From the NCBI RefSeq assembly GCF_005405345.1, contig NZ_BJDW01000015.1:1-56648 (forward strand): a stretch of 56,648 bases of DNA, written 5' to 3'. Under the pieces are notes generated by a model. It did not search any database. It was not told the origin of the DNA and saw nothing but the letters and a program-made list of their open reading frames with translations. The translations under genes and the position numbers were made by a program. The first letter of the stretch is position 1; every line of letters starts with the position of its first letter. This document shows, piece by piece, positions 35,770-51,890 of this stretch. The DNA is from Enterococcus viikkiensis. GTDB taxonomy: Bacteria; Bacillota; Bacilli; Lactobacillales; Enterococcaceae.

Positions 35770-37296
35770 GAGTAGCGGAGTTAAAAATTCGCTTAGGCGC
35801 TCCTTTACAATCGTTAACACTTTTCTTTTTTTCTGAGCCTCACTAGTCAAACGCTTTGAATGTCGCAGATCTTCTTCAAACTGGGATTGAATTTCAGAAA
35901 CCACTGCACTAGGCCCGTATAAAAATGCGGATAGTTCGTGGTTTAGATGGAAACTTCTCATATCAAAATTTGTCGATCCTACCGATGCAACCTGACCGTC
36001 TACAATCAGATATTTGCAATGTAAAAATGCCGTTGAATCATAGGCATAAACTTCCACCCCCGCAGACAATAGCCGATCGATAAAAGAATTATTTCCATAA
36101 TAAGAAATTCCACGATCCCCCTTGCCTGGAATGATTAATTGGACCTTTAGGCCGCATCTCGCCGCACGCCGAATAACCGAGAGCGATTCCTCGTCTGGAA
36201 CAAAATATGGGGTGGCAATCTGGATAGATTTTTCGGCTTTGCCAAATAATTCTATGATAGAATCTCTCAATGTTCGTTCTGAATCATAGGGACCACCAAA
36301 AATAAGTTGACAGATTTCCGTTTGAGCGTCTGAACTAACTTTTTCCAATGGAAAATAATGTTCTTGATCCTGAAAAAATGGGTTCAACGCTTGGTCATCT
36401 TCGTTTAAAAATAACCAATCCAGCAAAAAGACATACTGGACATAGATCGTACTAGGCCCAATTATTTTTAAGTTGGTATCCCGCCAATAAGCAAATTTAT
36501 TGGTAATACTACGATATTCATTGCCTAGATTCATCCCACCTATATGAGCAATGCGACCATCGATTATAACCATCTTACGGTGGTTCCGCCAATTTATTCG
36601 TGTACTTAGCGAAGGGGAATTGACTAAATCATACGCTCGAACGAAAATTCCCGCCTCTTTCAACCTATCTATAAATTCAAAAGGTAATTTTATAGATCCG
36701 ACACTATCATAAATAAAACGAACTTCCACTCCTTGTTTCGCCTTTTCTATCAATACCTCAGCTAGCTCACGACCCGTTTCATCTGCTTTATAAATAAAAT
36801 ACATTAAATGAATGTGGTGTTTCGCTGTTTTTAAATCACGTAACAATTCTTGATACGCTTGTTCTCCATCTGATAAATGAGTTATCTGGTTCCCACTCAA
36901 GGGTTCATTTCCGGATAGATACGTTAGTTCTTTAGAAATTGAATAAGGTTCACTGAATATTTCTGGATGTTCCTTTAACAGCCGGTCCATACCTTGGTGC
37001 AACAAACGTTCATTTTCTTTTTGAACTGAAGAAAAACGTCTAAACACCGGATTATTTCCTATTAAGAAAAAAAGCAATAATCCCATATAAGGAAAGAATA
37101 AAATAGTAAATAGCCAGGCAATTTTTGCCGTAGATGGTCGCTTATCAATTAGGACTAAATACCCACACAGAAAAAAAGATACCGCTTCCAAAAAAAGTGT
37201 TAAAAGAATAAAGCTATCAAAAAGTTGATAGGCCACAAAGCAAATACCGATAAACAGTCCTGTAATAACCAACAACCGCTGCAGCTTATTTTTCAT
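35767..37296 (-). CDS. cls: Cardiolipin synthase
   Basis: 509-aa membrane phospholipase-D-type enzyme that condenses two phosphatidylglycerols to cardiolipin and glycerol. Two N-terminal helices (LLVITGLFIGICFVAYQLFD; ... LFFPYMGLLLFFLIG), then two HKD motifs: NHRKMVIIDGRIAHIGGMN and LHCKYLIVDGQVASVGSTNF. Full length for the family. GGAGAATGTAA precedes the ATG. It is the last chromosomal gene before the island; in the island-free state it would lie next to the rplT 3' end. Confidence 0.95.
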   Translation of the reverse strand: MKNKLQRLLVITGLFIGICFVAYQLFDSFILLTLFLEAVSFFLCGYLVLIDKRPSTAKIAWLFTILFFPYMGLLLFFLIGNNPVFRRFSSVQKENERLLHQGMDRLLKEHPEIFSEPYSISKELTYLSGNEPLSGNQITHLSDGEQAYQELLRDLKTAKHHIHLMYFIYKADETGRELAEVLIEKAKQGVEVRFIYDSVGSIKLPFEFIDRLKEAGIFVRAYDLVNSPSLSTRINWRNHRKMVIIDGRIAHIGGMNLGNEYRSITNKFAYWRDTNLKIIGPSTIYVQYVFLLDWLFLNEDDQALNPFFQDQEHYFPLEKVSSDAQTEICQLIFGGPYDSERTLRDSIIELFGKAEKSIQIATPYFVPDEESLSVIRRAARCGLKVQLIIPGKGDRGISYYGNNSFIDRLLSAGVEVYAYDSTAFLHCKYLIVDGQVASVGSTNFDMRSFHLNHELSAFLYGPSAVVSEIQSQFEEDLRHSKRLTSEAQKKRKVLTIVKERLSEFLTPLL

Positions 37297-37449
37297 TTAC
37301 ATTCTCCTTAATTCTCTCGTTCTTGTCCTTTTATTCCATCAACTTGATAAAGTTAATTTTACGCTATATTTTCTTTTCAAGCTAGTTTACTGAATTTGTG
37401 AACAAATGACTTTCCTTCCTCGACTGAACACTCAAATTTATCTGGACAA

Positions 37450-37476
37450 AAAAAACCACTCGAATGAGTGGGGTTC
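37450..37476 (-). terminator. Displaced original rplT terminator
   Basis: CCACTC GAAT GAGTGG hairpin with an A8 tract (U tract on the minus strand). It aligns with the present rplT terminator at 51476-51503, but both arms differ by paired, compensating changes. Confidence 0.8.
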
Positions 37477-37535
37477 ACGTTGTTAAATCAACGTTTATAA
37501 GCTTATTTAGCCAATGAATCTTTTGCTTGGTCAGC
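37477..37535. repeat. attL: 59-bp direct repeat, displaced rplT 3' end
   Basis: Base-for-base identical to 51505-51563. Contains the last ten codons of rplT, its stop codon (37504-37506 on the minus strand) and downstream sequence up to the terminator, cut off from any upstream rplT. This is what remains of the chromosomal target after insertion at the 3' end of the gene. Confidence 0.92.
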
Positions 37536-37638
37536 GACTAAGCAGGTTTCATGGAGTCTCATAGGAGTGAAAAAAAGAGAATTTATAAACATTAAGATCG
37601 CATCTGAATTCACTTGATTTCATAAAATTTCAAACGGA

Positions 37639-37659
37639 TTTGGGTCAATTTTCGGTCAA
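37639..37659 (+). repeat. Left arm-type sites
   Basis: Two tandem boxes, TTTGGGTCAA (37639-37648) and TTTCGGTCAA (37650-37659). The same TTTGGGTCAA occurs near the right end at 51464-51473. The spacing and position fit arm sites of a tyrosine recombinase. Confidence 0.5.
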
Positions 37660-37865
37660 AATAAGAAACATGGGGCGCTGAAAAATGTTTATCTCAAAAA
37701 TGAATCTCAATATACATTTACGAAAAATAATTTCTTTTGTATAGAAGGAACTATTTTTAACTCATCCTTTAAAACCACTAATTCTATAATTTATGGGCTG
37801 TGCAATGAATACTCTATTCAATTCTTCATTGAAGTCTCTTCCTATAAGACTTCTTTTAAACGGAA

Positions 37866-38768
37866 TTATTTCAAAATATTTCGGCTTTTTTTCCCTAAAT
37901 TAAAAACTCTTCCGATTCTAAATTGTTTACCAAGTTCCATCCCGGTCATCAGTTCGTTTCGCGAGATATAAAAGGGAGTATCTGGTTTCTCAGACAATGA
38001 ACTTTTCACCTCGATATAAACCTTTGACGGACTATCAGTATTTAATGAGTCAACATCCCAAGCTATAATATCGTATCCCCGTCCATGTGTCTTTCCGGTA
38101 TATTCCATTTCATCAATGAATTGCTGAGCTTCCTCTGTATCTCCGAGCTTATCAATAATCTTTTTAGTATAGTACTTCAAGATAAGTTCTTCACCAATAT
38201 CACCATAATGCTTTTGATCTAAACGACTTATTTCAAGATAATCATCTGAAATTATTTTAGTTGAAGTTTCCGCTATTGATTCTGAGATAGGAGATTTATT
38301 TCTCAATCCTGGCTTTACTTCAACAATTTCATCATAATCAATAACATTAGAATGTTCCTTTCCTAGTTCAAACAACCACTTAGATATTTTATCATTTACC
38401 TCAATATTTAATACTTCTTGCACTTCTCTTTCTATCAATGAATCATTTGCTCGTTCTAATAAATCAGCAACTACAGAATGTTTCATATCTCCGAACATTC
38501 TTAATTCACTAATCGCAGTATTTATTGAAGTGTTTATATAAAAACCTTTATGAGGAGCAGTCAATCCATAATAATGCAAAATATTCATTGCATGGAAACC
38601 TTTTTTGGTTATGTTCAACACTTCAGTTTCCAATGTTCTATGAGATTTTCCGTCAAGTAAATATCCTGAGACAACATGAGCGCGCTGAACTAATGTGAAT
38701 TTGTTAGCCTCTTTTACTATTCTATTTTCTTTGTAACTATCCTTAAATGTTAAATCTGGAAACGTCAT
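37866..38768 (-). CDS. DUF3883 putative nuclease in the drmC position of DISARM
   Basis: About 300 aa. The C-terminal third is a DUF3883 (NO VEIN C-terminal) domain, a PD-(D/E)XK-like fold: HYGDIGEELILKYY (Glu199 in the longer frame), GRGYDIIAW (Asp238), YIEVKSS (Glu258, Lys260), FYISRNELMTGMELGKQFRI. The spacing D-x19-E-x-K fits a restriction-endonuclease-like active site. The N-terminal two thirds is helical, possibly with a winged-helix segment (ITKKGFHAMNILHYYGL), and is not recognised. Start: ATG 38768 follows GGGAGA by nine bases; GTG 38783 is the alternative. It overlaps the drmB stop, so it is translationally coupled and part of the system. Canonical DISARM has a phospholipase-D-like DrmC here; no PLD motif (HxKxxxxD) is present in this protein. 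Confidence 0.8.
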   Translation of the reverse strand: MTFPDLTFKDSYKENRIVKEANKFTLVQRAHVVSGYLLDGKSHRTLETEVLNITKKGFHAMNILHYYGLTAPHKGFYINTSINTAISELRMFGDMKHSVVADLLERANDSLIEREVQEVLNIEVNDKISKWLFELGKEHSNVIDYDEIVEVKPGLRNKSPISESIAETSTKIISDDYLEISRLDQKHYGDIGEELILKYYTKKIIDKLGDTEEAQQFIDEMEYTGKTHGRGYDIIAWDVDSLNTDSPSKVYIEVKSSLSEKPDTPFYISRNELMTGMELGKQFRIGRVFNLGKKSRNILK

Positions 38769-40656
38769 TAATATTTCTCCCACTAAAGAATCCCAACTCT
38801 GGCTCTTCTAAACTTCCAATTAGTACACTTCTATCTAGGAAAACATTCATTTTCTCACAACTAGTTTCCGAAATAAGTGAACACGCATGACAGGCTGCAC
38901 CGTTTAACGAATCTCTCCCTTGAGATTCACTTTCAATACACACCGGATCAAAGCTACACCATTTAGCTTTTTCTAATGCAGCATTTAATAGGTCAAAAAA
39001 TTTCTCTGGAACGCCTTGTTTAACAAGCCCTCCCAATGTTCCTTCCGAATCTGAACTTGATGTATAAATCAATATCCCATACATTTCTTTTCCAAGTTCA
39101 TCTGAATAATATATTCTTTCCTTTAAAGAGGATGAAGAATAACCACTACACATACTTAATTCTTTAATAAAAAGGTGAGATAGTGTATGAATAAGGTAAT
39201 AATCCGGACGAATGTAACCTTCTTCATCTGGGAATCTTACATTACTCATTTTCTTATAAATTTTATTCGAAATTACTGAGTCTTTAATTTTATCTCTCCA
39301 TTTTCTTATTTCTTCACTATTCAAGGAAAAGAATATACCTTCTCCTAATGAGCGCATGCCAACATAATAATTGTCTTTTCTACGAAGTGATACTTCCTGC
39401 GCCTCTCCAGAAGACTCCTCACCTTCTAAAACCTGTTCTTTCATTAATTCAGAATCAGTAGTCTGTATCCTGCTGTAGCTTCGAAGAGCACTAACTACCT
39501 CGAGTTGATGTACCAAAGTTATCCCGTTCAATAATTCACTGTAAATGTGACCAGAAATTTCCTCTGAATTGAAAAGTTTCATTTTGAATCTCTCTGAATC
39601 CTCATCATATTTTTCTTTTCCAGAAAGAACTTCAAACTCAGCTCTCCTATAATCCATTACAGTATCTGGATAATCATCACTTATCTCATTAAAAAACTTA
39701 ACGGAAATTATTTTTTTAACTTCATCAAAACTATATTCAATTTTTTCCGCTAATCGTGTAATCATTTTATTTACTAATTCATCTTTCTCAAGTTTTTCAA
39801 TTCCTTTTTCTCGTGTGACTCCTCTTAGCTCTGATTCCAAAGCGTTATAATACTCGTCACTCTGGATTAATTCAATTAATTTATTTTCTTTGAACGGTAT
39901 ATTCACTGAACTTGAGATATTAGGGAAAAAGAAATTGTTTGCATTTCTAAGAAGTACGTGAACCTCTTCATCACATTTAATTCTATTCTCTTCTTTTTTC
40001 CAAATGTATTCACCCTTACAACCAATTCCTAATTTCTCTAGTTGATGTGGAAATCTCTTTTCATCAAAAACTCCGGCTAAATTTCGGCTCTTATTGCATC
40101 TTTTACAAGATACTATTAAATCTGAAATAGAACCTGATTGTGCTGTACTTCCCAATGTAATTTCATGATCTTTATAACTATCATAGGACATCCCCTCATG
40201 AACCCATTCTAACCAAGGAAAATCTTGTGCATGCCCATTGCAACATGCGCATATAATCCGGACAGGAACAAGCTCGGTTTTCCTTTTACGAACATCAATT
40301 GGTTTCTGATTAAAAGCTTTGACTAAACTTGGTATCCCCTTTGCCTCTACCAACTGACGCCATGAATCAATTTTCCTCAAACTCCTATCTTCTGGAGAAA
40401 AATACCACTGTGGGAATCTTTTTCCTACAATATCATCTTCCTCCTTAAATGGCGGCTCAATGAAACCTTCAGCATCCATAGCTTTTTCTAATCTAATATC
40501 ATGGACTTTCTCACATCTGCTAGTATTCCAATACTCCGAATCTGCAATCATGACAGATTGATTATTTATATCCATTAAAGCCCCTATACCAAATGGCGTT
40601 AAAAGTTGCGATCTTCTAACGTTAAATTCCGGTTTGTCTTTCTGTTTATACACCAT
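38743..40656 (-). CDS. drmB: DISARM core protein DrmB (DUF1998)
   Basis: 637 aa. N-terminal RRSQLLTPFGIGALMDI is typical of DrmB-like proteins. Cysteine pairs ICACCNGH (136-139) and CKRCNK (184-187) suggest a zinc site; a DUF1998 domain occupies the C-terminus (YLIHTLSHLFIKELSMCSGY, GILIYTSSSDSEGTLGGL, then CHACSLISETSCE at 589-601). In DISARM, DrmB pairs with the helicase DrmA to recognise and block incoming phage DNA. Seven bases separate it from the drmA stop, and it overlaps the next gene, giving a tight operon. Function is from family knowledge; the DUF1998 blocks are clear. Confidence 0.88.
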   Translation of the reverse strand: MVYKQKDKPEFNVRRSQLLTPFGIGALMDINNQSVMIADSEYWNTSRCEKVHDIRLEKAMDAEGFIEPPFKEEDDIVGKRFPQWYFSPEDRSLRKIDSWRQLVEAKGIPSLVKAFNQKPIDVRKRKTELVPVRIICACCNGHAQDFPWLEWVHEGMSYDSYKDHEITLGSTAQSGSISDLIVSCKRCNKSRNLAGVFDEKRFPHQLEKLGIGCKGEYIWKKEENRIKCDEEVHVLLRNANNFFFPNISSSVNIPFKENKLIELIQSDEYYNALESELRGVTREKGIEKLEKDELVNKMITRLAEKIEYSFDEVKKIISVKFFNEISDDYPDTVMDYRRAEFEVLSGKEKYDEDSERFKMKLFNSEEISGHIYSELLNGITLVHQLEVVSALRSYSRIQTTDSELMKEQVLEGEESSGEAQEVSLRRKDNYYVGMRSLGEGIFFSLNSEEIRKWRDKIKDSVISNKIYKKMSNVRFPDEEGYIRPDYYLIHTLSHLFIKELSMCSGYSSSSLKERIYYSDELGKEMYGILIYTSSSDSEGTLGGLVKQGVPEKFFDLLNAALEKAKWCSFDPVCIESESQGRDSLNGAACHACSLISETSCEKMNVFLDRSVLIGSLEEPELGFFSGRNINDVSRFNI

Positions 40657-40664
40657 AACATCTC

Positions 40665-43600
40665 CTAATCTATTATTCTCAGATAGGCTGTATCTTCTAC
40701 ATTCCTCATTGTACCCATTACTTTAGTAGCTTCCCAATGTGTACTTTTATCTTCAAATGATCTAAGCAACAATTTTCCTTGGAATTCTTCTGCTTTACTT
40801 TTATATAAGTAATATTTGAATAGTTCCGCAGTATCTTCTACTTCTTCAGCAATATCGCACCAGTTATCACCAAAATTATTAATTATTCTGCTTGCATCTT
40901 CTCTATATAACTTGTGTCTGTCTTCGCTAGCTTTAACACGTTCCATAAGATAATCATTCACTTTTTCAAGTGCATCTTCAAATTCTAAAATGTTTTTTGC
41001 AGAATTATCGCCAGCTAATGAATCAATCGTATTCCTAAGCATTGCAACAATGACTCCAGCAGCGGCTTTTTCCAGAGCAGGTACTGAAAAGGGAGTTACA
41101 CTACTTGATTCGACAAATTTATATAAACTTTCATGATACGATTGAAATGTTTCATAATGAGATCTATCTCGACTTCGAGAAGAATTATACAACGTGCATA
41201 CTAAGCCTAAAGATTGTCTTCCTACTCGACTGGTCGCTTGAATATATTCTGAAGTCAGTTTCGGCTGACCCACTACAAACATGGCATTTAAACGATCAAT
41301 ATCAACACCCACAGATAACATATTTGTTGCAATTAACGTATCCACAGTTTTTTGGTATCTTTCCGCTCCTTTACATTCCTCTGTAATTCTATTGTGTGGA
41401 ATGTCTAATTTCTTTAGAATTGTAGGGATTTCTATACCAGGTATACGCGAAGTCAACTCCACGCTTGTATCGTCATTCATGAAACGTTTATTAGTATTAT
41501 TTCGCCTGTATAATTGATTGATATGTTCTTTTACATCATCCTTAATCAATCCTGAAGCTTTTCCAAGTTCTCGAATACTGTTAAAGTACCCAGCAACTGT
41601 CCAATATAATTCTTCTTCATCAATACTTAGGCCTAATTCTCTTATTGTTTGTAACATTGAAGACAGTAGCCGTATTTCTGCTGTTACTTGTGATTTCCCT
41701 GTCGGCATAATTCCAAGGTATTTTCTTCCATACGCATGTGTATCTTCTTTTACAAAGAAGTTATCTGTTATATTTATTCCGCTAGGTGGAAATTGGGAAA
41801 CTTTCCTGTCAAAAATCCCTTTTACCTGATCATCAGCGTTTCTGATTGTTGCAGTTGAAGCTATATATTTTGGAGCAATACTTCCATTTGCGTTTTTTAA
41901 AATATAATCAAATCCAGCTTCATACAGCCCAACGATGCTTCCGAGCGGTCCAGAAATCAAATGCAACTCGTCTTGAATAATTAATTCAGGGCGTCGATAT
42001 TTTTCTGGATCGTCCGAACCAAATAAGCTTGCTGTTTCTTCCTTTAAAGGGACTTGGGCGAACTTATCAACAGTACCAAAAAGTAATGTAGGTCTCTTCT
42101 TGTAGATTAATTCATCTACTACATAAATCGGTAATCCCTTAGAAAACTCACATTTCTTGTTCAAACATTTCATATTGAAATCATTTTTCTTTTCAATTTC
42201 ATAGTATCCCCATCTTCTTTTGCTTTGAAAGTTTTTATCATCAGGAATAATACTATGTTGTTCATGACACCAAGGACATTCCAAAACCTGAAATGTATTT
42301 TTTTTCTTCGCATATTCAATATTTTTTTGTTCAACCATATCTTTAAAATCTGCCTTAGCATCTTTTAATTTATTTTGAGTTCCCTCTCCTATCCAAAGTC
42401 CAATGCTAATTTCTGATTCCCCTAGATTACCTTCTTTTCTTCTAATAAACTCTAACGCACAAATTAATTGAGAAGCCCTATCAAATTGTTGAGCAGTTAA
42501 AAGTCGTAAAGTATATCTCATGATTACCGTCACGCCTGAGTAATTTTGATATTTCAATCTTCTATAAATTACAACGGCTGCGATTGCAAAAAGGTATGCT
42601 TCCGTTTTACCACCACCTGTACTAACCCAAATTAAATCCAGTAGCTCACGATCAGAGCTTTCTTCATTCAATATAGACTCTAATGAGTTTAATACGAACG
42701 CCAATTGAAATGGTCTCCATTTAAAGTTTGCAATTTGATAGTTTTTTGAATTATATGCCTCTTCTTTTTCAATTGAGTTCTTTAATCTTTGTAAAAGCAT
42801 TGCCTCATTAGCTTTATTGAAAGCCGCAAAAGCATCTTTATCTTTAGAAAGGAAGTCTATTGTTTTCTTCATGCGATGACTACAATTTCTACACTTTTCA
42901 ATGTTTTCCTTTGAAAGCTCTACATATTCAGGAATTAATGTTTTAGACTCTTTCGTAATTGAATCAATCCATTTATCATATTGCTCAACAAACTGATTTA
43001 GTTTTTCTAATTGTGCCTTATAGTCACTCCCTATATAACTTTCCGCACTCAAAACATCTGGCGAAATACCATCAATATCAAAAGACATTGGGCGTAATTC
43101 ATAGCTCGGAATATATGATGTTTTTATTTCGGATACTTTTCCATGCTCTTCTTTCCAAACTGCGGATACACCTCTTCCAAAGGCATATGTCCTTTTATCT
43201 CTATATAAAAAAAAGTTCATAGCGTCTTCTGAATTTAACTTAGATAAATCTGGAAGTTTTACATCTTCAGAAGCTTTAAACTCAACACTTTTTTGAGCTT
43301 TTATAGAGATTTCTGTTTGAAAAAGATGATTCTCTGAAATATTTTTTAAAACTATAGTTATTGCCGTCACCGTTTCCTCTTTTGCCACGTTGATTTTTTG
43401 TACTTTCGAAAATACTTGAAACGTTTTTTCTTCTTCAACTAATAATTTTTGAGAAGAAATACCTTCCTTTGAAAAGTCCAATTTCACTTCAAAGAAAACT
43501 GGAACACGTTCAAAACAGCTCTTGTTTTTATAATTTATGTTTTTAATCTTTTTTAGTAAAAATAGCATCTCCGAATCTTTAGCTTTATCGTCTGGTTTTA

Positions 43601-44144
43601 GTTCATTTAGAAAATCAGATATGGTTCCATCTCTATCTTCGAAGCTATCTTCATATTTAATTTTTGAATTTTCCAGATCAAATTTGAAAAGCTTTTCAAT
43701 ATTCATAACTTCTGATAAAGCAATTTTTTCTTGTAGCTCTTCAAGCACCTCTTTTTTCGTTTGAATAAATGGATTCTTTATTTTTTTGTAATAAGAGCTG
43801 TGAATTTCGATACCTATATCTTTTTTGCTACTTTTACAATAGAATGTGATACCTAAGGAAGATGGAAGAAAGCTATTATCAATCTCGGCTGATTCTTCTT
43901 CTTTATTCAAAAACTCTTGAGCTTCAAGAGTTGTTTCAATATCTTCTGTCGAAGCTTCTTTTAACTCCTTAAAAGGATATAAAATACCTGTAACGTATCT
44001 CGTTTGAGGTTTTTCAGAAATTATCTCGTGCTCAATATCCTGATTAATTCTTTCTGACCCCGGTCCTAATAATAATTGCGAAATAGCATTAGAATAATTT
44101 TCTCTTATACTATTTTGTTGTTTCTTATCCGTAATTTTTACCAT
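40665..44144 (-). CDS. drmA: DISARM core helicase DrmA
   Basis: 1159-aa superfamily 2 helicase. Walker A VSTGGGKTEAY (GGGKT about 510-514), DEAH-type box IIQDELHLISG (DELH at 726-729), STAT motif III (IASTATIRN), TNMLSVGVDIDRL (941-953) and motif VI YIQATSRVGRQS (about 968-979). A four-cysteine insertion (C624, C627, C661, C666) between the helicase motifs looks like a zinc ribbon. The first 450 residues are family-specific. All catalytic motifs are intact. In DISARM, DrmA with DrmB forms the DNA-binding, 5'-end-sensing core. Its ATG overlaps the drmE stop (TAATG), so the genes are coupled. Confidence 0.92.
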   Translation of the reverse strand: MVKITDKKQQNSIRENYSNAISQLLLGPGSERINQDIEHEIISEKPQTRYVTGILYPFKELKEASTEDIETTLEAQEFLNKEEESAEIDNSFLPSSLGITFYCKSSKKDIGIEIHSSYYKKIKNPFIQTKKEVLEELQEKIALSEVMNIEKLFKFDLENSKIKYEDSFEDRDGTISDFLNELKPDDKAKDSEMLFLLKKIKNINYKNKSCFERVPVFFEVKLDFSKEGISSQKLLVEEEKTFQVFSKVQKINVAKEETVTAITIVLKNISENHLFQTEISIKAQKSVEFKASEDVKLPDLSKLNSEDAMNFFLYRDKRTYAFGRGVSAVWKEEHGKVSEIKTSYIPSYELRPMSFDIDGISPDVLSAESYIGSDYKAQLEKLNQFVEQYDKWIDSITKESKTLIPEYVELSKENIEKCRNCSHRMKKTIDFLSKDKDAFAAFNKANEAMLLQRLKNSIEKEEAYNSKNYQIANFKWRPFQLAFVLNSLESILNEESSDRELLDLIWVSTGGGKTEAYLFAIAAVVIYRRLKYQNYSGVTVIMRYTLRLLTAQQFDRASQLICALEFIRRKEGNLGESEISIGLWIGEGTQNKLKDAKADFKDMVEQKNIEYAKKKNTFQVLECPWCHEQHSIIPDDKNFQSKRRWGYYEIEKKNDFNMKCLNKKCEFSKGLPIYVVDELIYKKRPTLLFGTVDKFAQVPLKEETASLFGSDDPEKYRRPELIIQDELHLISGPLGSIVGLYEAGFDYILKNANGSIAPKYIASTATIRNADDQVKGIFDRKVSQFPPSGINITDNFFVKEDTHAYGRKYLGIMPTGKSQVTAEIRLLSSMLQTIRELGLSIDEEELYWTVAGYFNSIRELGKASGLIKDDVKEHINQLYRRNNTNKRFMNDDTSVELTSRIPGIEIPTILKKLDIPHNRITEECKGAERYQKTVDTLIATNMLSVGVDIDRLNAMFVVGQPKLTSEYIQATSRVGRQSLGLVCTLYNSSRSRDRSHYETFQSYHESLYKFVESSSVTPFSVPALEKAAAGVIVAMLRNTIDSLAGDNSAKNILEFEDALEKVNDYLMERVKASEDRHKLYREDASRIINNFGDNWCDIAEEVEDTAELFKYYLYKSKAEEFQGKLLLRSFEDKSTHWEATKVMGTMRNVEDTAYLRIID

Positions 44145-46570
44145 TAACTTTTTCCTCCCAAAAACTTATTAGTCAGGTATCTCGGTACGTCTTCTATATC
44201 TATATCTTCAACTAAAATTACTTTATCCACCGAATAAGATTTTATTGAGCTATCTTTTATTATTTCATTCAGTTTCCTACCGTCAATTGAGTCCATAAGT
44301 CTATCTCTTTCATAATTCAAATTTTTCTTTACTATTGTGCTTGCACTATAATACTTATCAGGTTCATTTGTTAATTCAGAGTTTTTAGTAAGTAATCCAA
44401 TATAATAAATAAAACTAGAATCTCTAGGTAGGATTGGCATTTTATCAATTGAGGACCATGATCCATAAAAAGTTATTGACTTATCTATCGCACCTAGTTC
44501 ATCCATTCTTTCTTTGAATTGAGTTGGAGTCATTTCTCTTTCTTTAATGTATTCAAGTAAAATCATTTTCCAAAAATAATCAAGCCTTAAATTTTCATCA
44601 AGTGTACTATCAATAAAAATTCCATTTATGAAGTTATACTTTTTCAATTGTTCTCTATAAAGGGTATCGGAATAAGGAACCTCAAATTCAACAATGTTTT
44701 GCCCAATTTGAATATTATTCACATCCGTTTTTCTACAAAAATTTTCTTGTAAAATAAAAACTTTTCCAAACTCGGTTCCAAAAATATTTTTTCCTGACTC
44801 TAAATCTATCCCACGAACAACATTGACAAGTTGTTTTTCACTTTCAGTCTCAATTCCAGAAGTAGTGATGATTAAATTATTTATCAAGCTTAAATATTCT
44901 TTTTGTGGATCTTCTTCTTTATCCAGTTCATCATATAGTACCTTGTCATCGCAGTTATTATTTACTTGTTTTTCTCTCATTGTTTTTTCAAAATATTTAT
45001 TAATTGCTTTTAAATATGCAGAATCTCGATCAGAATAGCTATTATCCAAAGTATATAAATGTTGAATTATTCTTTTATCTCTTTTTAAGGAGTGCATGAG
45101 GTACTTCTCTTGCAAATCCGGAAAAACAACAAAAAGTTTATTTGTTAGATAGCTCGATAACCATTTTTTCCTATCCCTTGCATATGGGGAAAGCAAGATG
45201 ACACTATCAAATGTTCCATATAGGTCTTCATATATCTTTTCACTATATGGCAGAACTGTTATCGTATCATCATTCATGTAAATTTTTTTTGTTTCTTCAA
45301 CCATTTCATCCATGACTACAAGTGCACACTTATCTTTACTTCTTATAGAGTCGATAATTTTCTTGTTTTGAAAACCAAATCTATTACAATAGATATCATA
45401 TAAAATACCAGAAATTTTTTCGGTCTCTTCCAAATTTAACTTTTCCATATATTCTGATACAATTATCATTTGTTGCTCAAGGGTACGGGAACACCCAATT
45501 ATTTGACTGTAATTCATCTTCAAGAATCGTTTTAATAGTTTATCCAGATATTTTAATCTGGGTATCTCACGAATATCTCCTATATACTCATTGAGTTTTG
45601 CTATCGCATTATCAAACTCTTCATTACTAGACACAAAATCAAATGAAATTTCCATTTTGCTAAATTCTTTCGATTCAAGCCAGCAAAATTCTCTATCCAT
45701 TTTCTTCAAAAATTTAAGTTTTGATTCATCCATGACTGATGGTATACTAGAAAATACTGTCATTGGAATTCCGAAATCATCACACGCATCCTCAAGTGTA
45801 AATAAATTTGAAAATTGTCCATTTGAAAACCATTTGTCTCCAATAACATATACTCGTTTTTCTGATATATCTCCATCGCTTTCATCTAAATACTCTATGA
45901 CAGCTCCTATACTTGATGAAAAAATTACCATAGGTTTTTCTGTACTATTAGAATGTGGTATTCGTTCAAAAATCAATGATTCTTTTAAATACTCCGCAGT
46001 ACAAAATTCACCCAAATATGAATATCTATTATTAATATTAAATTTTACATTTACTATTTCATCTAATAGCTTCTTTTCAAGAATTACTATCACGTTTTCA
46101 TCATTTGTCCAACTTATAGAAGAAAGCCCCATTTGCTTTCCAAAATCCTCTTTGGTACTTTTTACTTTTCTACTTTTTGTATTGGTTACAATGCTAGCTT
46201 TACTTTCAATTACATCTTTTTTTAAAATCCGCGTATAAGAATCTTTCTTTTTATATATCGGCTCCAATATATAGCCGTCACTTCTATTGTCCTGTCCCTT
46301 GAAACTATAATAGGTCTTTTCAAATAGAAGTTTAGTCTCATCACCCAAATCGTCTATATTAATCTTTTGACCGTTTGAGAGATTCTTAAAACTAGTTACC
46401 AAACAAATTAGCAAAACAAGTTCTTTATAGTAGCTAGAGTTTAAATACTGATATGCATATGAGCCTTCAAACTTTTCATATTTAAGAAAATCATTCAAAA
46501 CATTTTTTTTATTTTTAGAAATGTAGCCAAATGGGCTAGTTAATAGTAAAAGTTTCATTACAGCATCCAT
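44144..46570 (-). CDS. drmE: DISARM class 2 protein DrmE
   Basis: 808 aa, first gene of the minus-strand operon. No clear catalytic motif; it has a helical N-terminus (MKLLLLTSPFGYISKNKKNV) and a middle region with stretches like FEVPYSDTLYREQLKKYNFI, where degenerate helicase-like segments can be suspected. The assignment rests on size, position upstream of drmA, and the divergent cytosine methyltransferase, which is the class 2 DISARM layout. GGGAGAAAACTAC precedes the ATG. Biochemical role unknown. Confidence 0.75.
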   Translation of the reverse strand: MDAVMKLLLLTSPFGYISKNKKNVLNDFLKYEKFEGSYAYQYLNSSYYKELVLLICLVTSFKNLSNGQKINIDDLGDETKLLFEKTYYSFKGQDNRSDGYILEPIYKKKDSYTRILKKDVIESKASIVTNTKSRKVKSTKEDFGKQMGLSSISWTNDENVIVILEKKLLDEIVNVKFNINNRYSYLGEFCTAEYLKESLIFERIPHSNSTEKPMVIFSSSIGAVIEYLDESDGDISEKRVYVIGDKWFSNGQFSNLFTLEDACDDFGIPMTVFSSIPSVMDESKLKFLKKMDREFCWLESKEFSKMEISFDFVSSNEEFDNAIAKLNEYIGDIREIPRLKYLDKLLKRFLKMNYSQIIGCSRTLEQQMIIVSEYMEKLNLEETEKISGILYDIYCNRFGFQNKKIIDSIRSKDKCALVVMDEMVEETKKIYMNDDTITVLPYSEKIYEDLYGTFDSVILLSPYARDRKKWLSSYLTNKLFVVFPDLQEKYLMHSLKRDKRIIQHLYTLDNSYSDRDSAYLKAINKYFEKTMREKQVNNNCDDKVLYDELDKEEDPQKEYLSLINNLIITTSGIETESEKQLVNVVRGIDLESGKNIFGTEFGKVFILQENFCRKTDVNNIQIGQNIVEFEVPYSDTLYREQLKKYNFINGIFIDSTLDENLRLDYFWKMILLEYIKEREMTPTQFKERMDELGAIDKSITFYGSWSSIDKMPILPRDSSFIYYIGLLTKNSELTNEPDKYYSASTIVKKNLNYERDRLMDSIDGRKLNEIIKDSSIKSYSVDKVILVEDIDIEDVPRYLTNKFLGGKS

Positions 46571-46708
46571 GTAGTTTTCTCCCTTAATGAATCTATCACA
46601 AAAATTATACCTCAGTTCATGTGGCTATTTACAACTATTTTTGTTAATTTTTGCTTTCCCACTAGTAGGTTACTTTTAAACCTGGTATAATTGCGCTGAG
46701 GTGAAATC
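46571..46708. promoter_or_regulatory. Divergent drmE / drmMII promoter region
   Basis: On the plus strand TATAAT at 46686-46691 is a good -10 for drmMII; just upstream a dyad AGGTT-N7-AACCT (46667-46683) covers the -35 region. On the minus strand AT-rich sequence near 46600-46640 should hold the drmE promoter. GAGGTGA before the drmMII ATG is the ribosome site. The dyad could be an operator, perhaps bound by the methyltransferase itself. Confidence 0.5.
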
Positions 46709-47965
46709 ATGCTAAACATCATAGACCTGTTTTCTGGCGCGGGAGGATTAACCGAAGGATTTAGAAAAGATGATTTTAATTTACTTGCTCATGTTGAAAT
46801 GGATGAGGCTGCAAGTAAAACATTAAAAGTTAGAGATGCTTACTATTATCTAAAAGAAAATGGAAATTTAAATAGATACAACGATTACATCAATAAGAAA
46901 ATTTCGTATGATGAATTTTTGTCTGAAATCCCTGAAAAAATTGTCGAAAAAGTAATTAATCTAGCAATATCAGAAGATAATTTACCAGAAATTTTCAGGC
47001 AAATTGATTCTCAGCCAAATTCAAATATGGTTCACGGTATCATTGGGGGACCACCATGCCAAGCCTATTCAACGATTGGTAGGGCAAGAAATAAAAAAAT
47101 CAAAGAATCTGACGAGCGAATCTACTTATATAAGTATTATCTGAGGTTCTTGGAAAAATATAACCCTGATTTTTTCGTGTTTGAAAACGTAAAAGGACTA
47201 TTATCGTTTAAGGACTTAGACGGAAATAGCCTTCTGGAAAAAATAAAGTACGATTTTATCAATGTAATTTCTACAGGTCATTACCATATTCAAATAAAAT
47301 TAATTAACTGTGCTGATTTCGGCGTTCCACAAGTTAGAGAAAGATTAATCATTTTTGGATACAAAACTTCAATGATAGATTTTGATTTTTTCAGAAGCCT
47401 TGATCAATTTCAGGAAAAACCACCAATAATTAAAGAGTTATTTCAAGATCTGCCTATATTAAAATCCGGAGAAACTAAAAATGCATATTCGAAAGTTCCT
47501 CCTTCAGAATATGTTTCAATAAATCTAAGAAATAGCAAGATTCCTTTGACCCAAAATATCTGTCGTCCTAATAACGAAAACGATTTAAAAATTTATAGGA
47601 TCGTAGCAAAAGAAAAAAAGAAGAATCGAAATGTTAAGTATTCCGATCTTCCAATTGAATTAATCACACATAAGAAATCAAATATTTTCTTGGATAGATT
47701 TAAAGCAATAAATGATAACGGATATAGTCATACAGTTGTTGCTCATATAGCAAAAGATGGTCATTACTATATTCATCCTGATGTATCTCAAAATCGTTCA
47801 ATCACAGTCCGAGAAGCTGCAAGAATTCAGACATTTCCCGATGATTTTTATTTTGAAAGCTCTCGAACTTCTGCTTTTAAACAAATAGGAAATGCAGTAC
47901 CACCACATTTTTCAAAAATTATTAGCCAAAATATTTTAGAAAATTTGTATGCAATTACAGGGTGA
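46709..47965 (+). CDS. drmMII: DISARM cytosine-5 DNA methyltransferase DrmMII
   Basis: 418-aa C5 methyltransferase. Motif I IDLFSGAGGLTEGF (5-18), motif IV GGPPCQAYSTIGR with catalytic Cys117, motif VI FENVKG (about 158-163), motif VIII QVRERLIIFG, motif X QIGNAVPPHFS, and a target-recognition region in between. In class 2 DISARM this enzyme marks host DNA so that the DrmAB complex spares it (CCWGG in the studied Bacillus case). The target site here cannot be read. Transcribed divergently from drmE, with its own terminator. No separate restriction endonuclease is encoded next to it. Confidence 0.92.
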   Translation: MLNIIDLFSGAGGLTEGFRKDDFNLLAHVEMDEAASKTLKVRDAYYYLKENGNLNRYNDYINKKISYDEFLSEIPEKIVEKVINLAISEDNLPEIFRQIDSQPNSNMVHGIIGGPPCQAYSTIGRARNKKIKESDERIYLYKYYLRFLEKYNPDFFVFENVKGLLSFKDLDGNSLLEKIKYDFINVISTGHYHIQIKLINCADFGVPQVRERLIIFGYKTSMIDFDFFRSLDQFQEKPPIIKELFQDLPILKSGETKNAYSKVPPSEYVSINLRNSKIPLTQNICRPNNENDLKIYRIVAKEKKKNRNVKYSDLPIELITHKKSNIFLDRFKAINDNGYSHTVVAHIAKDGHYYIHPDVSQNRSITVREAARIQTFPDDFYFESSRTSAFKQIGNAVPPHFSKIISQNILENLYAITG

Positions 47966-48064
47966 ATATTCAAAGACTATTCATTCTGTAAACAATTCGA
48001 TTGATTCTTATAAAAGATGTTAACTCGCAGAGTATAATCGAATCGAACATTTTACTTACTTTTA

Positions 48065-48096
48065 AAGCCAAGCTTATCGAGAGCTTGGCTTTTTTG
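48065..48096 (+). terminator. drmMII terminator
   Basis: AAGCCAAGCT / AGCTTGGCTT stem, 7-base loop, T6 tract. Confidence 0.9.
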
Positions 48097-48239
48097 TGTT
48101 TAAGTTTGCAAAGCGTTGAAACAACAACGATTTTGACGCTGTTTCCTTAAAACTTAATATCGAAAGTTTGCACTGTTTTGCAGAGAAATGAAGGTCGAGT
48201 TAAGCTAAATTTAAGCCACTTTTTTAGCCATAAAAAGAT

Positions 48240-48281
48240 GGGCTTACGCCCCGATAAAGCTTTTGATAAAAAATCGGGGAG
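48240..48281 (+). promoter_or_regulatory. Alternative hairpins that can hide a ribosome site
   Basis: CCCCGAT (48249-48255) pairs with ATCGGGG (48273-48279), which includes most of the GGGGAG ribosome site of the next gene. A competing small hairpin GGGC-TTAC-GCCC (48240-48251) uses the same CCC. The two folds exclude each other. Confidence 0.4.
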
Positions 48282-48291
48282 TGTGATATAA

Positions 48292-48618
48292 ATGGTATTT
48301 AACTACGATCAAAAAAGACGGGACTACTTAAAGGGTGCTTTATCACATGAAGAATTTTATTTGGATTTAGCCGATGCGATTGCTTTTGATGATCTTGAAG
48401 TATTAGTACCAGAAACTGCGTGTAAATCAAAAGACCCGAACTTAAATGATGTACCACTAAAACTTTGGGATTACAGATTTCCAGCTGTCAGGATGTTACT
48501 AAGTCGCGCAATCAACCAAAAACGTGTCATCAAACGGATCAATGGGTTATCAGCATCGGAGTCAGTTTGCATCTTAAAAGCCGTTGCGAGAGAATGCACA
48601 GCATCGCAATTAGTATAA
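48292..48618 (+). CDS. Small mobile-element-associated protein of unknown function
   Basis: 108 aa, soluble. Reads FNYDQKRRDYLKGALSHEEF, LPLADAIAFDD-like acidic middle (YLDLADAIAFDDLEVLVPET), then LKLWDYRFPAVRMLLSRAI. Similar short proteins occur on plasmids and integrative elements of lactic acid bacteria, but I know no function. GGGGAG stands ten bases before the ATG and may be masked by a hairpin. Followed by two hairpins. Confidence 0.65.
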   Translation: MVFNYDQKRRDYLKGALSHEEFYLDLADAIAFDDLEVLVPETACKSKDPNLNDVPLKLWDYRFPAVRMLLSRAINQKRVIKRINGLSASESVCILKAVARECTASQLV

Positions 48619-48627
48619 ACTAAAAAC

Positions 48628-48685
48628 GCTCGGTATCACATACCGGGCGCACACGAGGATGGCTATCTAGCTGTCCTCTTTTTTT
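48628..48685 (+). terminator. Double hairpin, second one a terminator
   Basis: GCTCGGTAT-CAC-ATACCGGGC (48628-48648), then GAGGAtGGCTA / TAGCTgTCCTC followed by T7 (48655-48685). Confidence 0.75.
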
Positions 48686-48757
48686 ACACGCAAAAAAAGT
48701 AGCAATTCAATTTTGCTACTTACTTCACATATTAAAACTATGTATTTTTTTCGCTAA

Positions 48758-48909
48758 CTACAATACTAAGTTAACAAACAGTATAAAAGCACAAATTCCG
48801 AAAACTACTGCAAAAAACTAAAAACAAAAGCTTTTACTTTTCTAACTATGCGAAAATATATACACATAGCACACAGAATTAACGAAATTAAAAGATATCC
48901 CGTTCCCAC
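48758..48909 (-). CDS. Tiny two-helix membrane protein with frame break at a T-run
   Basis: From GTG 48909, behind GGGGGTGCTTAA, the frame reads VGTGYLLISLILCAMCIYFR then IVRKVKAFVFSFLQ and stops at 48805. At T-TTT-TTG a shift to the -1 frame gives SFFAVVFGICAFILFVNLVL and a stop at 48758, adding a second membrane helix. Either a frameshift mutation or programmed slippage. An 11-codon leader (MKIKITNKGGA) with its own ribosome site lies just upstream. Function unknown. Confidence 0.4.
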
Positions 48910-49168
48910 TTAAGCACCCCCTTTATTAGTTATTTTAATTTTCATAAACACCCCCCTTTTCTCTTAATATCATTATTATATCATGTATAGATTCAAAAAT
49001 AAAATTAAAACAGGGATTCTCTATCATTGATGTATCGTTATTTACTACCGTTTTTTTTAGATATCAGCAATGTTTTCACACTTTTTTTAAATCATCATTC
49101 TCCGCGAAACGTTATAAAGCGAAATATTCGAAATATTTTCTAAATTTCTAGCAGTAATTTATTATCAC
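48910..49168. other. AT-rich stretch of the island without a clear gene
   Basis: Contains a minus-strand TATAAT near 48970 that could serve the tiny membrane protein, the 11-codon leader, and otherwise nothing I can name. Confidence 0.35.
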
Positions 49169-49327
49169 TTTGTCAGCAATCTGTTAACAATCTGCTTACA
49201 CCTTGTTAACTCTTTGCACCATTTTGACAGCAACACCCACCATCAAATCCCGCGCACAACAATTTGACAGCAATCTGCTTACACTTTACTAACTACTTGC
49301 TATCTTTCTTCCAACAAACTGCTTGCA
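49169..49327 (+). repeat. Iteron-like direct repeats
   Basis: Four copies of a 12-mer close to AATCTGCTTACA start at 49178, 49189, 49272 and 49316; the first reads AATCTGTTAACA and the last AAACTGCTTGCA. Three copies of TTTGACAGCAA (49169, 49223, 49263; the first with one change) are interleaved. The order is partly duplicated as TTTGACAGCAATCTGCTTAC. This could be a binding array for a replication, transfer or recombination protein. Confidence 0.6.
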
Positions 49328-49339
49328 CCTTCGTGCAGC

Positions 49340-49790
49340 CGGTCCACTTCTTTTTTTACCTCAACATAAAAAGCCACCGGGTCCCCGCTGCGTTCACGAA
49401 ATAAATCTTTTAACTCAATTCAGAAAATCTTGCTCACTCTGCCCCACTGTCTTTTTGAGACGTTATTTCTACGGTCTTGACAGACAGTCTTCTCACACGC
49501 GTAAACGCAGCAAATTCGTCTATCACTGTTAACGCCCCAATACGCTTTAACGAAAACCAACTAAAAACCACCCCCAAGCGCTTGCGCATACAAAAAATAC
49601 AAACTTTTAGGGGGAGGAAGCGCCTCCTCCCTCACGCCACGAAAGGTTTTCAACAGGGAGGAGACACCCTCGACGCTTGTGGTAACTTATACCATAATCA
49701 AAAGAATGCTTATACACCAACCTTTTCAGACGGTAGGCGCCTCAAGGTGCCTTATCGAAGCGCATCGGGGAAAGAGCATAAGGAGTGTGT
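49340..49790. other. GC-rich, structure-rich stretch, no recognisable gene
   Basis: Stands out from the AT-rich island. Contains an AAGCGCTTGCGC element at 49576-49587, GGGAGGA-AGCGCC-TCCTCCC (49612-49631), a further GGGAGGAG at 49656, and TGGTA-ACTTA-TACCA (49680-49694). The long plus-strand frames here have no protein-like character. An oriT or a structured RNA are possibilities; neither can be shown. Confidence 0.4.
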
Positions 49791-49931
49791 ATGTCAAAAA
49801 ATGCTCCGCCGCATTTTCCTCCAGCCAGCAGAGCTGCCCCCACTCCTTACAGCGTCAATCAGCTTAACGCTGTTTGCCTTGCCCTCTCTACCGTTCGGGT
49901 GCTCCATCGGCTCTCGCCGCGTTATTTTTGA
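49791..49931 (+). CDS. Possible 46-aa peptide, Pro/Ala-rich start
   Basis: ATG preceded by ATAAGGAGTGTGT, a good ribosome site. Reads MSKNAPPHFPPASRAAPTPY then SVNQLNAVCLALSTVRVLHR. Unusual composition and no known family; coding status is uncertain, the ribosome site being the main support. Confidence 0.35.
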   Translation: MSKNAPPHFPPASRAAPTPYSVNQLNAVCLALSTVRVLHRLSPRYF

Positions 49932-49964
49932 AGTGATTTCGCCATCAGATGTGGCGACGAGGAA

Positions 49965-50246
49965 ATGTATGACAAACGAGAAAAGGAGCTGGCAATAAAT
50001 GATTTACTATATTTTTTCAGAACTATCCCCGGTGCTGATCTATCATTTTACCTGATGATTTTTATCTGTGTCTTTGGGTACTTTGTGGTCAAATCAATTC
50101 GCCATAAAATCGAACAATATCGATATGAGCGGGAAAACCGAATTGAAGAAATGCAGAAAGCCGAATTAGCCAGAAAAGAAATGGAGCAATTTGAAAAAGA
50201 ACAAATAGCACACATCAAAATGGAGGATTTTTGGTATGGAAAATAA
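49965..50246 (+). CDS. Small membrane protein with cytosolic coiled coil
   Basis: 93 aa. One membrane helix at about 26-44 (LSFYLMIFICVFGYFVVKSI) followed by a highly charged helical tail (YRYERENRIEEMQKAELARK). No family recognised. GACGAGGAA before the ATG is a weak ribosome site. Overlaps the RadC-like gene by 11 bases and leads a run of small island genes. Confidence 0.6.
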   Translation: MYDKREKELAINDLLYFFRTIPGADLSFYLMIFICVFGYFVVKSIRHKIEQYRYERENRIEEMQKAELARKEMEQFEKEQIAHIKMEDFWYGK

Positions 50247-50703
50247 TAATGATACACTAATTTGCGAGGAAATAATGACACTCAAACAGATTAAGCGTAA
50301 ACGCAAAAATAAGAAGATTCCTTCCAAAGTCACGTCATCGTTTGCTCTCGCACAGTGGCTTAGCGATCTAATCGGAAATGAAAGTCAAGAGCATCTACTG
50401 GTAATTTGTTTAGACACAAAAAATCAAATCAATAGTTATGAGACAGTCTCAATTGGGTCACTTAATCAGTCCATAGCTCACCCAAGAGACATTTTGCAGC
50501 GAGCTTTGCTATCTAATGCTGCGCGCATCGTAGTCGCCCATAACCACCCATCGAGCAACCCAACGCCATCAGAAAATGATAACGATTTTACTTCCCGCAT
50601 GAATAAAGCATGCACACTACTAGGTATTGATCTGCTTGACCACATTATTGTTACCGACACAGATAAATACTATTCGTTCAGAGAAGAAACGAGCGTGATT
50701 TGA
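50236..50703 (+). CDS. RadC/JAB-domain protein
   Basis: 155 aa. JAB/MPN+ metalloprotease-like motif: VAHNHPSSNPTPSENDNDFT carries the HxH-x7-S-x2-D type ligands, and IVTDTDKYYSFREE completes the fold. It lacks the N-terminal helix-hairpin-helix of chromosomal RadC, and is instead preceded by a Lys-rich segment. Such short RadC-like proteins are common on phages, plasmids and integrative elements; the function is unproven. Its TGA overlaps the next ATG. Confidence 0.85.
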   Translation: MENNNDTLICEEIMTLKQIKRKRKNKKIPSKVTSSFALAQWLSDLIGNESQEHLLVICLDTKNQINSYETVSIGSLNQSIAHPRDILQRALLSNAARIVVAHNHPSSNPTPSENDNDFTSRMNKACTLLGIDLLDHIIVTDTDKYYSFREETSVI

Positions 50704-50846
50704 TGGCAAATGTTGGCGTATTAACTGCGCGCGAGATTAAAATGATCATGAGTCGTCGACAAACACTCTTTTTGTCGTATTTAGTGGCTGGAAAATATGT
50801 AAGCAAATACGACGACGAAGCGGTCATTTTGCTCCGAAACTACTAA
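50703..50846 (+). CDS. 47-aa ORF, 5' part of a possibly split gene
   Basis: Starts by TGATG overlap with the RadC-like gene. Reads MANVGVLTAREIKMIMSRRQ then TLFLSYLVAGKYVSKYDDEA. It ends at TAA 50844. The same frame, after a second TAA four codons... later, continues with protein-like sequence (HVFVVEYDFETNIVSVHSK) into the following ORF. It may therefore be one gene of about 140 codons broken by stops, or two adjacent small genes. Confidence 0.5.
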   Translation: MANVGVLTAREIKMIMSRRQTLFLSYLVAGKYVSKYDDEAVILLRNY

Positions 50847-51475: not shown

Positions 51476-51503
51476 AAAAACCCCGCTCGAATGAGCGGGG
51501 TTT
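51476..51503 (-). terminator. Present rplT terminator, supplied by the island
   Basis: CCCCGCTC-GAAT-GAGCGGGG with flanking A5 (U tract on the minus strand). Lies on the island side of attR. Confidence 0.9.
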
Positions 51504-51504
51504 A

Positions 51505-51563
51505 ACGTTGTTAAATCAACGTTTATAAGCTTATTTAGCCAATGAATCTTTTGCTTGGTCAGC
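51505..51563. repeat. attR: 59-bp direct repeat at the rplT 3' end
   Basis: Identical to 37477-37535. It covers the last 33 bases of rplT plus 26 bases downstream, so insertion leaves the L20 protein sequence intact. Confidence 0.92.
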
Positions 51564-51890
51564 TAGTGCTGTGAAAGCAGCTGCATCGTTAACTGCTAAA
51601 TCAGCCAACATTTTGCGGTTGATTTCGATACCGGCAAGTTTAAGACCGTGCATTAATTTTGAGTAGCTCAAGTTGTTCATGCGAGCCGCTGCGTTGATAC
51701 GAGCGATCCACAATTTACGGAAGTCGCGTTTCTTTTGACGACGATCGCGATATGCGTAGTTGTATGAATTCATTACTTGTTCTTTAGCTGTTTTAAATAG
51801 AGTGTGTTTAGAACCGTAGTAACCTTTAGCTAGTTTTAGTGTCTTTTTACGACGTTTACGAGTTACTGTTCCACCTTTAACACGTGCCAT
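51531..51890 (-). CDS. rplT: 50S ribosomal protein L20
   Basis: 119 aa, basic, full length: [55 protein letters not shown]. Binds 23S rRNA early in 50S assembly and in many bacteria represses its own operon by binding the leader. AGGAGGAATTAAAC precedes the ATG. Its last eleven codons lie in the island att site; reading frame and C-terminus (AKDSLAK) are preserved. Confidence 0.98.

Follow-up and report, generated by a model that had tools for sequence, protein, structure and literature searches.

An apparently undescribed DISARM variant with a predicted DUF3883-family nuclease in Enterococcus viikkiensis

Positions 37,866 to 47,965 of contig NZ_BJDW01000015.1 of Enterococcus viikkiensis hold a five-gene DISARM (defence island system associated with restriction-modification) locus, a compact minus-strand operon with a divergent methyltransferase gene, in which no DrmC was found and the last operon gene encodes a predicted restriction-type nuclease with a C-terminal NOV_C (DUF3883) domain. 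The window, i.e., the whole stretch of DNA analysed, comprises 56,648 nucleotides. DISARM has a core of DrmA, DrmB and the phospholipase D (PLD) protein DrmC, to which class 2 adds DrmE and DrmMII; the locus described here is a real, apparently undescribed variant of this system. On balance, a DrmC-less branch of DISARM, carried here on an island integrated at rplT, probably recruited the nuclease to serve as an optional cutting arm.

The operon and its last gene

The last protein matched NOV_C (PF13020) with 47.6 bits (Pfam cut-off 22.1) and no NCBIfam family at an E-value of 0.1. The residues E198, D238, E258 and K260, together with the motifs GYD and ExK, do not vary in any of the 10 rows of alignments A2, A3 and A4 (which have rows in common), and no HxK motif, as in the PLD signature HxK(x4)D, was found in the protein; a first-pass annotation of the window had correctly named D238, E258 and K260 as well as the missing HxK. 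AlphaFold2 gave a poor model of the whole homologue from Enterococcus thailandicus (predicted local distance difference test, pLDDT, 63) and a fair one of its NOV_C domain alone (pLDDT 80, predicted template modelling score 0.75). Foldseek comparison of the domain model with the PDB yielded mostly PD-(D/E)XK proteins as top matches, all with E-values of 0.1 or more; these are enzymes which we take to be of that type, namely the SPARDA nuclease, Hjc, SSO0001/Cas4, HinP1I and SwaI. A PLD fold, against which the first-pass annotation had also argued, was rejected, given the missing HxK and the absence of any PLD protein among the 50 matches listed in either of two PDB fold searches, none of which was significant. 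PDB sequence searches returned no match with alignment A1 and, with alignment A4, a single xylanase at an E-value of 0.037, which was disregarded. By its family and its invariant residues the protein is a predicted PD-(D/E)XK restriction-type endonuclease, and the ranking of the fold matches agrees weakly. In the accessible part of PMC3710099, DUF3883 is called a "novel REase domain" (restriction endonuclease domain) and is fused to an SNF2 helicase in a restriction-modification (R-M) operon; the part available of PMC10609329 lists it as a presumed group of Type II REases. The protein resembles other DUF3883/NOV_C restriction-type nucleases in its C-terminal PD-(D/E)XK domain with invariant GYD and ExK, whereas the relatives in alignment A2 have other N-terminal parts and the N-terminal module of the window protein is otherwise found on HNH proteins.

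This N-terminal module (approximately residues 25-125) shares homology with one domain of the HNH protein that adjoins DISARM locus L142 of a different genome, and with a 93-aa open frame in locus L132. The pairwise scores of the E. thailandicus module were 86 (L142) and 113 (L132), as compared with shuffled means of about 26 (standard deviation below 5), and none of 500 shuffles reached them. The module also occurs in HNH endonuclease genes of one Exiguobacterium plasmid and one Vibrio plasmid and in an HNH-like protein of genome G839. A search of 71 genomes of the class recovered it in 2, one of them the window's own. The module may serve to recognise DNA.

Regarding the other genes of the locus, DrmA and DrmB are securely identified by sequence, both matching the solved DrmAB complex 7s9v. 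DrmA reached 886 bits with the NCBIfam model DrmAS, which is below the equivalog cut-off of 950, and DrmB reached 452 bits with DrmB_fam (cut-off 240); of the features of core and class 2 DISARM, DrmA, a separate MZB/DUF1998-type DrmB and the class 2 methyltransferase DrmMII are present. The 808-aa protein was matched by the NCBIfam model DrmE_fam over residues 21-749, with only 47.3 bits against a cut-off of 80, and by no PADLOC model; phmmer matched it to the genes in the equivalent position of loci L014-L018, and in L018, the deepest member of the window's clade (see below), DrmE passes the cut-off with 86 bits. The first-pass annotation had described a superfamily 2 (SF2) helicase with a DUF1998 partner, an 808-aa protein and a divergent C5 methyltransferase, and the five genes lie where it placed them (Table 1). 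The coupling of genes that it reported is borne out by a one-base overlap of drmE with drmA and a 41-bp overlap of the nuclease gene, counted from its GTG, with drmB; the drmA-drmB gap is 8 bp from the coordinates, not 7 bp. Presumably, the region between the divergent genes holds the promoters for both directions.

Linkage to drmB and the survey for DrmC

Of 395 genomes of the order, 19 were matched by a profile of the two-domain protein; four matches span both domains, 14 cover the NOV_C part only and one is a flavoprotein. (Note that G163/L087 was rejected as a family member, the false match being an HI0933-like flavoprotein.) All four genomes with both-domain matches, i.e., the window's own, E. 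thailandicus G260, Vagococcus G211 and G018 (broken), carry the gene beside drmB, directly after it in three of them; two of the four are near-copies. A DrmB search matched 7 of 295 genomes of the order, the window's included, so that the two-domain gene is present in 4 of the 7 drmB genomes versus none of the remaining 288; this corresponds to a hypergeometric chance of about 1e-7, or 5e-6 with the near-copies counted once, assuming from the genome handles that the set of 395 contains the 295. A merely accidental neighbourhood with drmB, a possibility raised by the first-pass annotation, was rejected on the strength of this linkage and test. In a phylum search, 5 of 398 genomes matched, only the window's own at full length. 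The two-domain form occurs in three lineages with differing surroundings, including Vagococcus, whose protein is 30% identical to that of the window. PF13020 was found in 11 of 27 DrmB-matching genomes; leaving the drm neighbours aside, G447 is the only one in which it shares a contig with drmB, and there a DUF3883 protein of another kind (L055:13034-13864) lies about 7.4 kb from drmB and just before a C5 methyltransferase gene. Viral contigs scanned with alignment A1, the L142 protein, the 808-aa protein and alignment A5 yielded no relative. Phage searches gave no match with drmB and one record with the nuclease (47% of the query), and a plasmid search with the nuclease gave two S. aureus records, NOV_C part only.

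None of the five proteins matched DrmC in PADLOC, Pfam or NCBIfam, and the only HKD-like motif between positions 34000 and 51600 of the window is that of a cardiolipin synthase. Across the genome, the one NCBIfam DrmC model used (E-value 0.001) matched three proteins only, five times in all and each time below the cut-off; each of the three, namely the neighbouring cardiolipin synthase (NCBIfam name) and two proteins of similar size, carries two HKD motifs. (Note that this model is loose and also matches in 10 of 14 control genomes.) A DrmC hidden elsewhere in the genome, which the first-pass annotation had pointed to as a complication, was rejected because there were only these sub-cut-off matches to two-HKD proteins, and its description of the locus as class 2 DISARM without DrmC holds in the sense of a class-2-type system. 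The part available of PMC9252829 (2022) defines DISARM type II in PADLOC by DrmA, DrmB, DrmC, DrmE and DrmMII all being present; judged from the models and this definition, the locus falls outside it, DrmC being absent and the 808-aa protein having no PADLOC model. It resembles class 2, or PADLOC type II, in having drmA, drmB, drmMII and a gene of the DrmE family packed into a compact operon, whereas it differs in the NOV_C nuclease present instead of DrmC and in a DrmE below the NCBIfam cut-off.

The survey covered 44 DISARM loci of one phylum, window excluded, taken from searches at order, phylum and class level and from one L. plantarum plasmid, with genes clustered by single linkage at 1e-8. 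Note that 44 loci are not 44 genomes (G649 supplies L056 and L061), that L063, L064 and L065 are included with a DrmB under the cut-off, that 2 of 57 plasmid records were taken in, and that 5 of the 44 loci have less than 3 kb after drmB. Left out were L047 (DrmB present, a longer frame on the opposite strand selected in its stead, contig stopping right after drmB), L066 (DrmB fragments only), L055 (genome of L054), L128 (beside L127) and, all under the DrmB cut-off, G306 and G654 from the phylum and G872, G938 and G1000 from the class. Stand-alone DrmC was found in 8 loci, a NERD/helicase-type cluster in 8, N-module/NOV_C in 3 and an HNH cluster in 2, without any overlap (permutation P 0.013, with related loci treated as independent). 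The nuclease gene of the window sits where DrmC sits in 8 of 8 DrmC-bearing loci, in all of which a loose motif scan recovered the HKD motif of DrmC. Among the 23 DrmE-type loci (DrmE cluster or split form; L144 and L146 end less than 2 kb after drmB), the numbers were 0 for same-strand stand-alone DrmC, 6 for NERD/helicase, 3 for NOV_C, 2 for HNH and 12 for none of these; the cut-off of the classical DrmE model NF038323 was passed by none of the ten proteins tested. Other PLD-type proteins occur in 4 of the 23 DrmE-type stretches, comprising one large-protein cluster (L056, L057 and L059) and a 408-aa opposite-strand protein (L147); they were recognised by PLDc_2 in Pfam in L056 only, by an HKD-like motif in L059 and L147, and by cluster and DrmC-profile label in L057. 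Since the whole DrmE-type sample is devoid of stand-alone DrmC, DrmC was not swapped out in the window's system alone.

Several features of the surveyed loci are recorded here in their own right. Upstream of drmA, where elsewhere one DrmE gene is found, a gene pair (308-584 aa and about 500 aa) that looks like a split DrmE occurs in nine loci (L056, L061, L141, L142, L144, L145, L146, L147 and L019). NERD/helicase-type genes lie inside the DISARM operons of L052, L057, L059, L134, L135 and L137, and also of L051 and L058, between drmE and drmA in 6 of the 8; among three cluster members tested, NERD exceeded the Pfam cut-off in L052 only, and in L057 and L059, where the helicase part only was matched, a nuclease part is suggested by the N-termini. 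Such genes resemble the nuclease gene of the window as non-PLD nuclease-type genes in DrmC-less operons, but differ from it in their fusion to a helicase domain and in their position. The two HNH-cluster proteins appear to have only the HNH part in common. Genes of a Vsr-like mismatch endonuclease cluster (L060:12010-12435, and in L050, L052, L061, L132, L133, L134 and L135) are found near DISARM and adjoin its C5 methyltransferase gene in 6 of 8 cases, Vsr being confirmed by NCBIfam in L060 only. In L053 (11332-12060), a gene for a MutY-like glycosylase, whose NCBIfam match is below the cut-off, immediately follows a DrmC-like gene.

Clade, frame break and island

The DrmA tree had 39 rows, one for the window and the others for 38 of the 44 surveyed loci. 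Loci lacking a 900-aa DrmA frame were omitted, among them L129 (DrmC) and L058 (NERD/helicase cluster). The window falls in a 7-row clade with L018, L017, L127, L016, L014 and L015 (100/100), nested in a 25-row clade (94/98, not starred) with none of the tree's 7 DrmC rows inside. Within the 7-row clade, E. thailandicus and Vagococcus (V. allomyrinae) have the nuclease gene as an open frame of full length; it is broken in the window and in L014 (G018), and was not found in L016, L018 and L127. PF13020 had no match anywhere in the genomes of L016 (G050) and L018 (G222), and L016 has a weak HNH-like remnant after drmB (HNH_2 with 19.5 bits, cut-off 21). Among the labelled rows, the nuclease label amounts to one change on the tree; because unlabelled rows lie within the clade, losses or repeated gains must be added. 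In this clade the nuclease gene is accessory.

The statement of the first-pass annotation that all genes are intact does not apply to the last one. The E. thailandicus copy (L015/L067) has 333 aa and is 96% identical to the window protein, and the Vagococcus protein also extends past the window protein's end. The window protein departs from its relatives' frame six codons before its stop, so that the conserved C-terminus is lost, the last 34 E. thailandicus residues being absent in alignment A1, and beyond the stop the family profile goes on in a different frame (Table 1); the catalytic residues are retained despite the break. The frames part in an A-rich run, and the break could thus stem from a sequencing or assembly error, from a real mutation or from slippage.

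Direct repeats of the 3' end of rplT indicate an integrated island of about 14.1 kb at rplT, which carries the DISARM operon. The 11.2-kb block, nuclease gene included, is common as one unit to the window and another genus. No counterpart of the island past 48690 was found in E. thailandicus, the right-flank DNA was found in none of 7 genomes searched, no integrase-sized frame was seen in the island besides the drm genes, and an Rfam scan of 36000-50800 at the gathering score gave nothing. A RadC/JAB-domain gene lies within the island at 50236-50703. In E. thailandicus (L156, contig C55 of G260), an integrase-like gene, named from reading of its sequence, abuts rplT, which thus seems to serve such elements as an attachment site.

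Table 1. Features of the DISARM locus and its surroundings in the window
Feature	Position	Strand	Basis
drmMII, C5 DNA methyltransferase, divergent	46709..47965	+	PADLOC DrmMII 1.1e-136; Pfam DNA_methylase 6.2e-54
Divergent intergenic region, 138 bp	46571..46708		Gene coordinates
drmE-family gene, 808 aa, distant	44144..46570	-	NCBIfam DrmE_fam, E 9.5e-13
drmA, SF2/YprA-type helicase	40665..44144	-	NCBIfam DrmAS; PDB 7s9v DrmA, E 1.3e-132
drmB, MZB/DUF1998 partner	38743..40656	-	NCBIfam DrmB_fam 3.7e-135; PDB 7s9v DrmB, E 1.7e-65
Gene for N-module + NOV_C (DUF3883) predicted PD-(D/E)XK nuclease, 305 aa, frame break at C-terminus	37866..38783	-	Pfam NOV_C 1.8e-12; alignments A1, A2
N-terminal module shared with HNH endonucleases, about residues 25-125	38399..38711	-	Pairwise scores, profile searches
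Predicted catalytic NOV_C domain with E198, D238, E258, K260	37869..38264	-	Alignment A4; AlphaFold2 model of E. thailandicus domain, pLDDT 80
Continuation of family profile in another frame beyond the stop	37783..37905	-	Profile searches
Block 97.5% identical to E. thailandicus, 11.2 kb	37503..48689		DNA comparison
Attachment-site-like direct repeat, copy of rplT 3' end	37459..37535		Repeat comparison
Second attachment-site-like repeat, at rplT 3' end	51486..51563		96% over 78 columns
rplT	51531..51890	-	Named from reading of sequence; infC beside rplT named by Pfam

Interpretation and significance

As in the known system, DrmA and DrmB would make up a helicase core which is loaded onto invading DNA, while self DNA would be marked by DrmMII. 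The product of the last gene, predicted to consist of a helical N-terminal module and a C-terminal PD-(D/E)XK (DUF3883) cleavage domain, might then cut DNA engaged or exposed by DrmAB, or unmodified DNA in parallel; a coupling to DrmAB is suggested by genomic linkage only. Because of the lost C-terminus, the cutting arm may be impaired in the window's genome. According to the part available of PMC9142583, DrmAB, which is autoinhibited, is loaded onto DNA with 5' overhangs and may bring in a nuclease; DrmC is dispensable and often missing. The accessible part of PMC12458937 gives PLD as typical for DISARM and reports a substitution of PLD by PD-(D/E)XK in BRIGADE, which is likewise a YprA-type helicase system whose usual PLD nuclease is occasionally replaced in this way; in contrast to the present locus, the same text has BRIGADE detected only in halophilic archaea, with 7-deazaguanine genes, and it is not DISARM. 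A literature search found no publication linking DUF3883 to DISARM. The novelty lies less in the single gene than in the pattern, i.e., DrmE-type loci without stand-alone DrmC, some with other nuclease-type genes.

The first-pass annotation had proposed that the effector nuclease was swapped. A PD-(D/E)XK nuclease linked to this DISARM lineage is what remains of that proposal; an exchange for DrmC in this system is not borne out, as stand-alone DrmC is absent from 23 of 23 DrmE-type loci, 5 of the 7 clade loci have a broken nuclease gene or none, and the window copy has lost its C-terminus. Several observations also weigh against the recruitment of a cutting arm as favoured here. The gene is not essential, since of the seven clade loci two have a broken copy and three have none, and in Vagococcus two genes separate it from drmB. 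Compared with E. thailandicus over the first 297 codons, its ratio of non-synonymous to synonymous change (pN/pS) is 0.32 (4 synonymous and 5 non-synonymous changes), versus 0.10-0.17 for the other four operon genes; with so few changes this is not decisive and gives no argument for strong constraint. No fold match reached an E-value of 0.001 in the two PDB fold searches or the viral fold library. No drm gene is named around the plasmid-borne HNH genes with the N-module (stretches of 18 kb and 10 kb), and the 19.5-kb stretch of G839 matches none of the window's four drm proteins; the presence of the N-module in HNH proteins away from drm genes points to a general restriction-type module, and its reading as a DISARM-only adaptor was rejected.

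That the nuclease is a solitary restriction enzyme (Type II or IV like) which merely stands beside DISARM in a defence island, functionally uncoupled from it, is rather unlikely. The N-module on HNH proteins without drm genes in the stretches seen would fit such an enzyme, as would the frequent loss or breakage of the gene and the 14 further genomes of the order that match NOV_C only, 12 of which bear DrmB-search handles and have no DrmB; against it stand the overlap with drmB and the finding of N-module and NOV_C together only beside drmB, in three lineages, in both the order and the phylum search. It is improbable that the nuclease is the cognate endonuclease of DrmMII, i.e., half of a Type II-like R-M pair joined by the DrmA, DrmB and DrmE proteins, since DrmMII is present in L016, L018 and L127, the clade loci from which the nuclease gene is missing, even though L055 has its different kind of DUF3883 protein just before a C5 methyltransferase gene, the Vibrio HNH gene with the N-module is separated from a SinI R-M pair by 1.3 kb and one gene, and a Type II assignment is presumed for DUF3883 in the accessible part of PMC10609329. 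The frame break of the window, the decay in G018 (L014), the absence from three relatives and the dispensability of DrmC in known DISARM, as given in the part available of PMC9142583, would also suit a decaying, inactive leftover, with defence provided by the other Drm proteins alone; this is very improbable even for the window's genome, where the catalytic residues and most of the gene are retained, and open full-length copies exist in E. thailandicus and V. allomyrinae.

The recruitment of a restriction-type nuclease as an optional cutting arm is thus the reading retained here. A wider generalisation is possible but doubtful, namely that the DrmE-type DISARM of the phylum forms a DrmC-less branch with an interchangeable plug-in cutting arm, which is N-module/NOV_C in the Lactobacillales clade and NERD/helicase, HNH or none elsewhere. 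If this were true, the plugged-in nuclease would set the effect of DISARM on the DNA that it catches, and the apparent dispensability of DrmC would be explained. The way in which phage DNA is destroyed by DISARM is unsettled; a lineage with a different, testable endonuclease, together with a survey in which the DrmE-type loci are devoid of stand-alone DrmC, offers a direct approach to the question of whether DISARM cuts, blocks or borrows nucleases. The results also suggest that tools requiring DrmC for type II DISARM would miss such loci.

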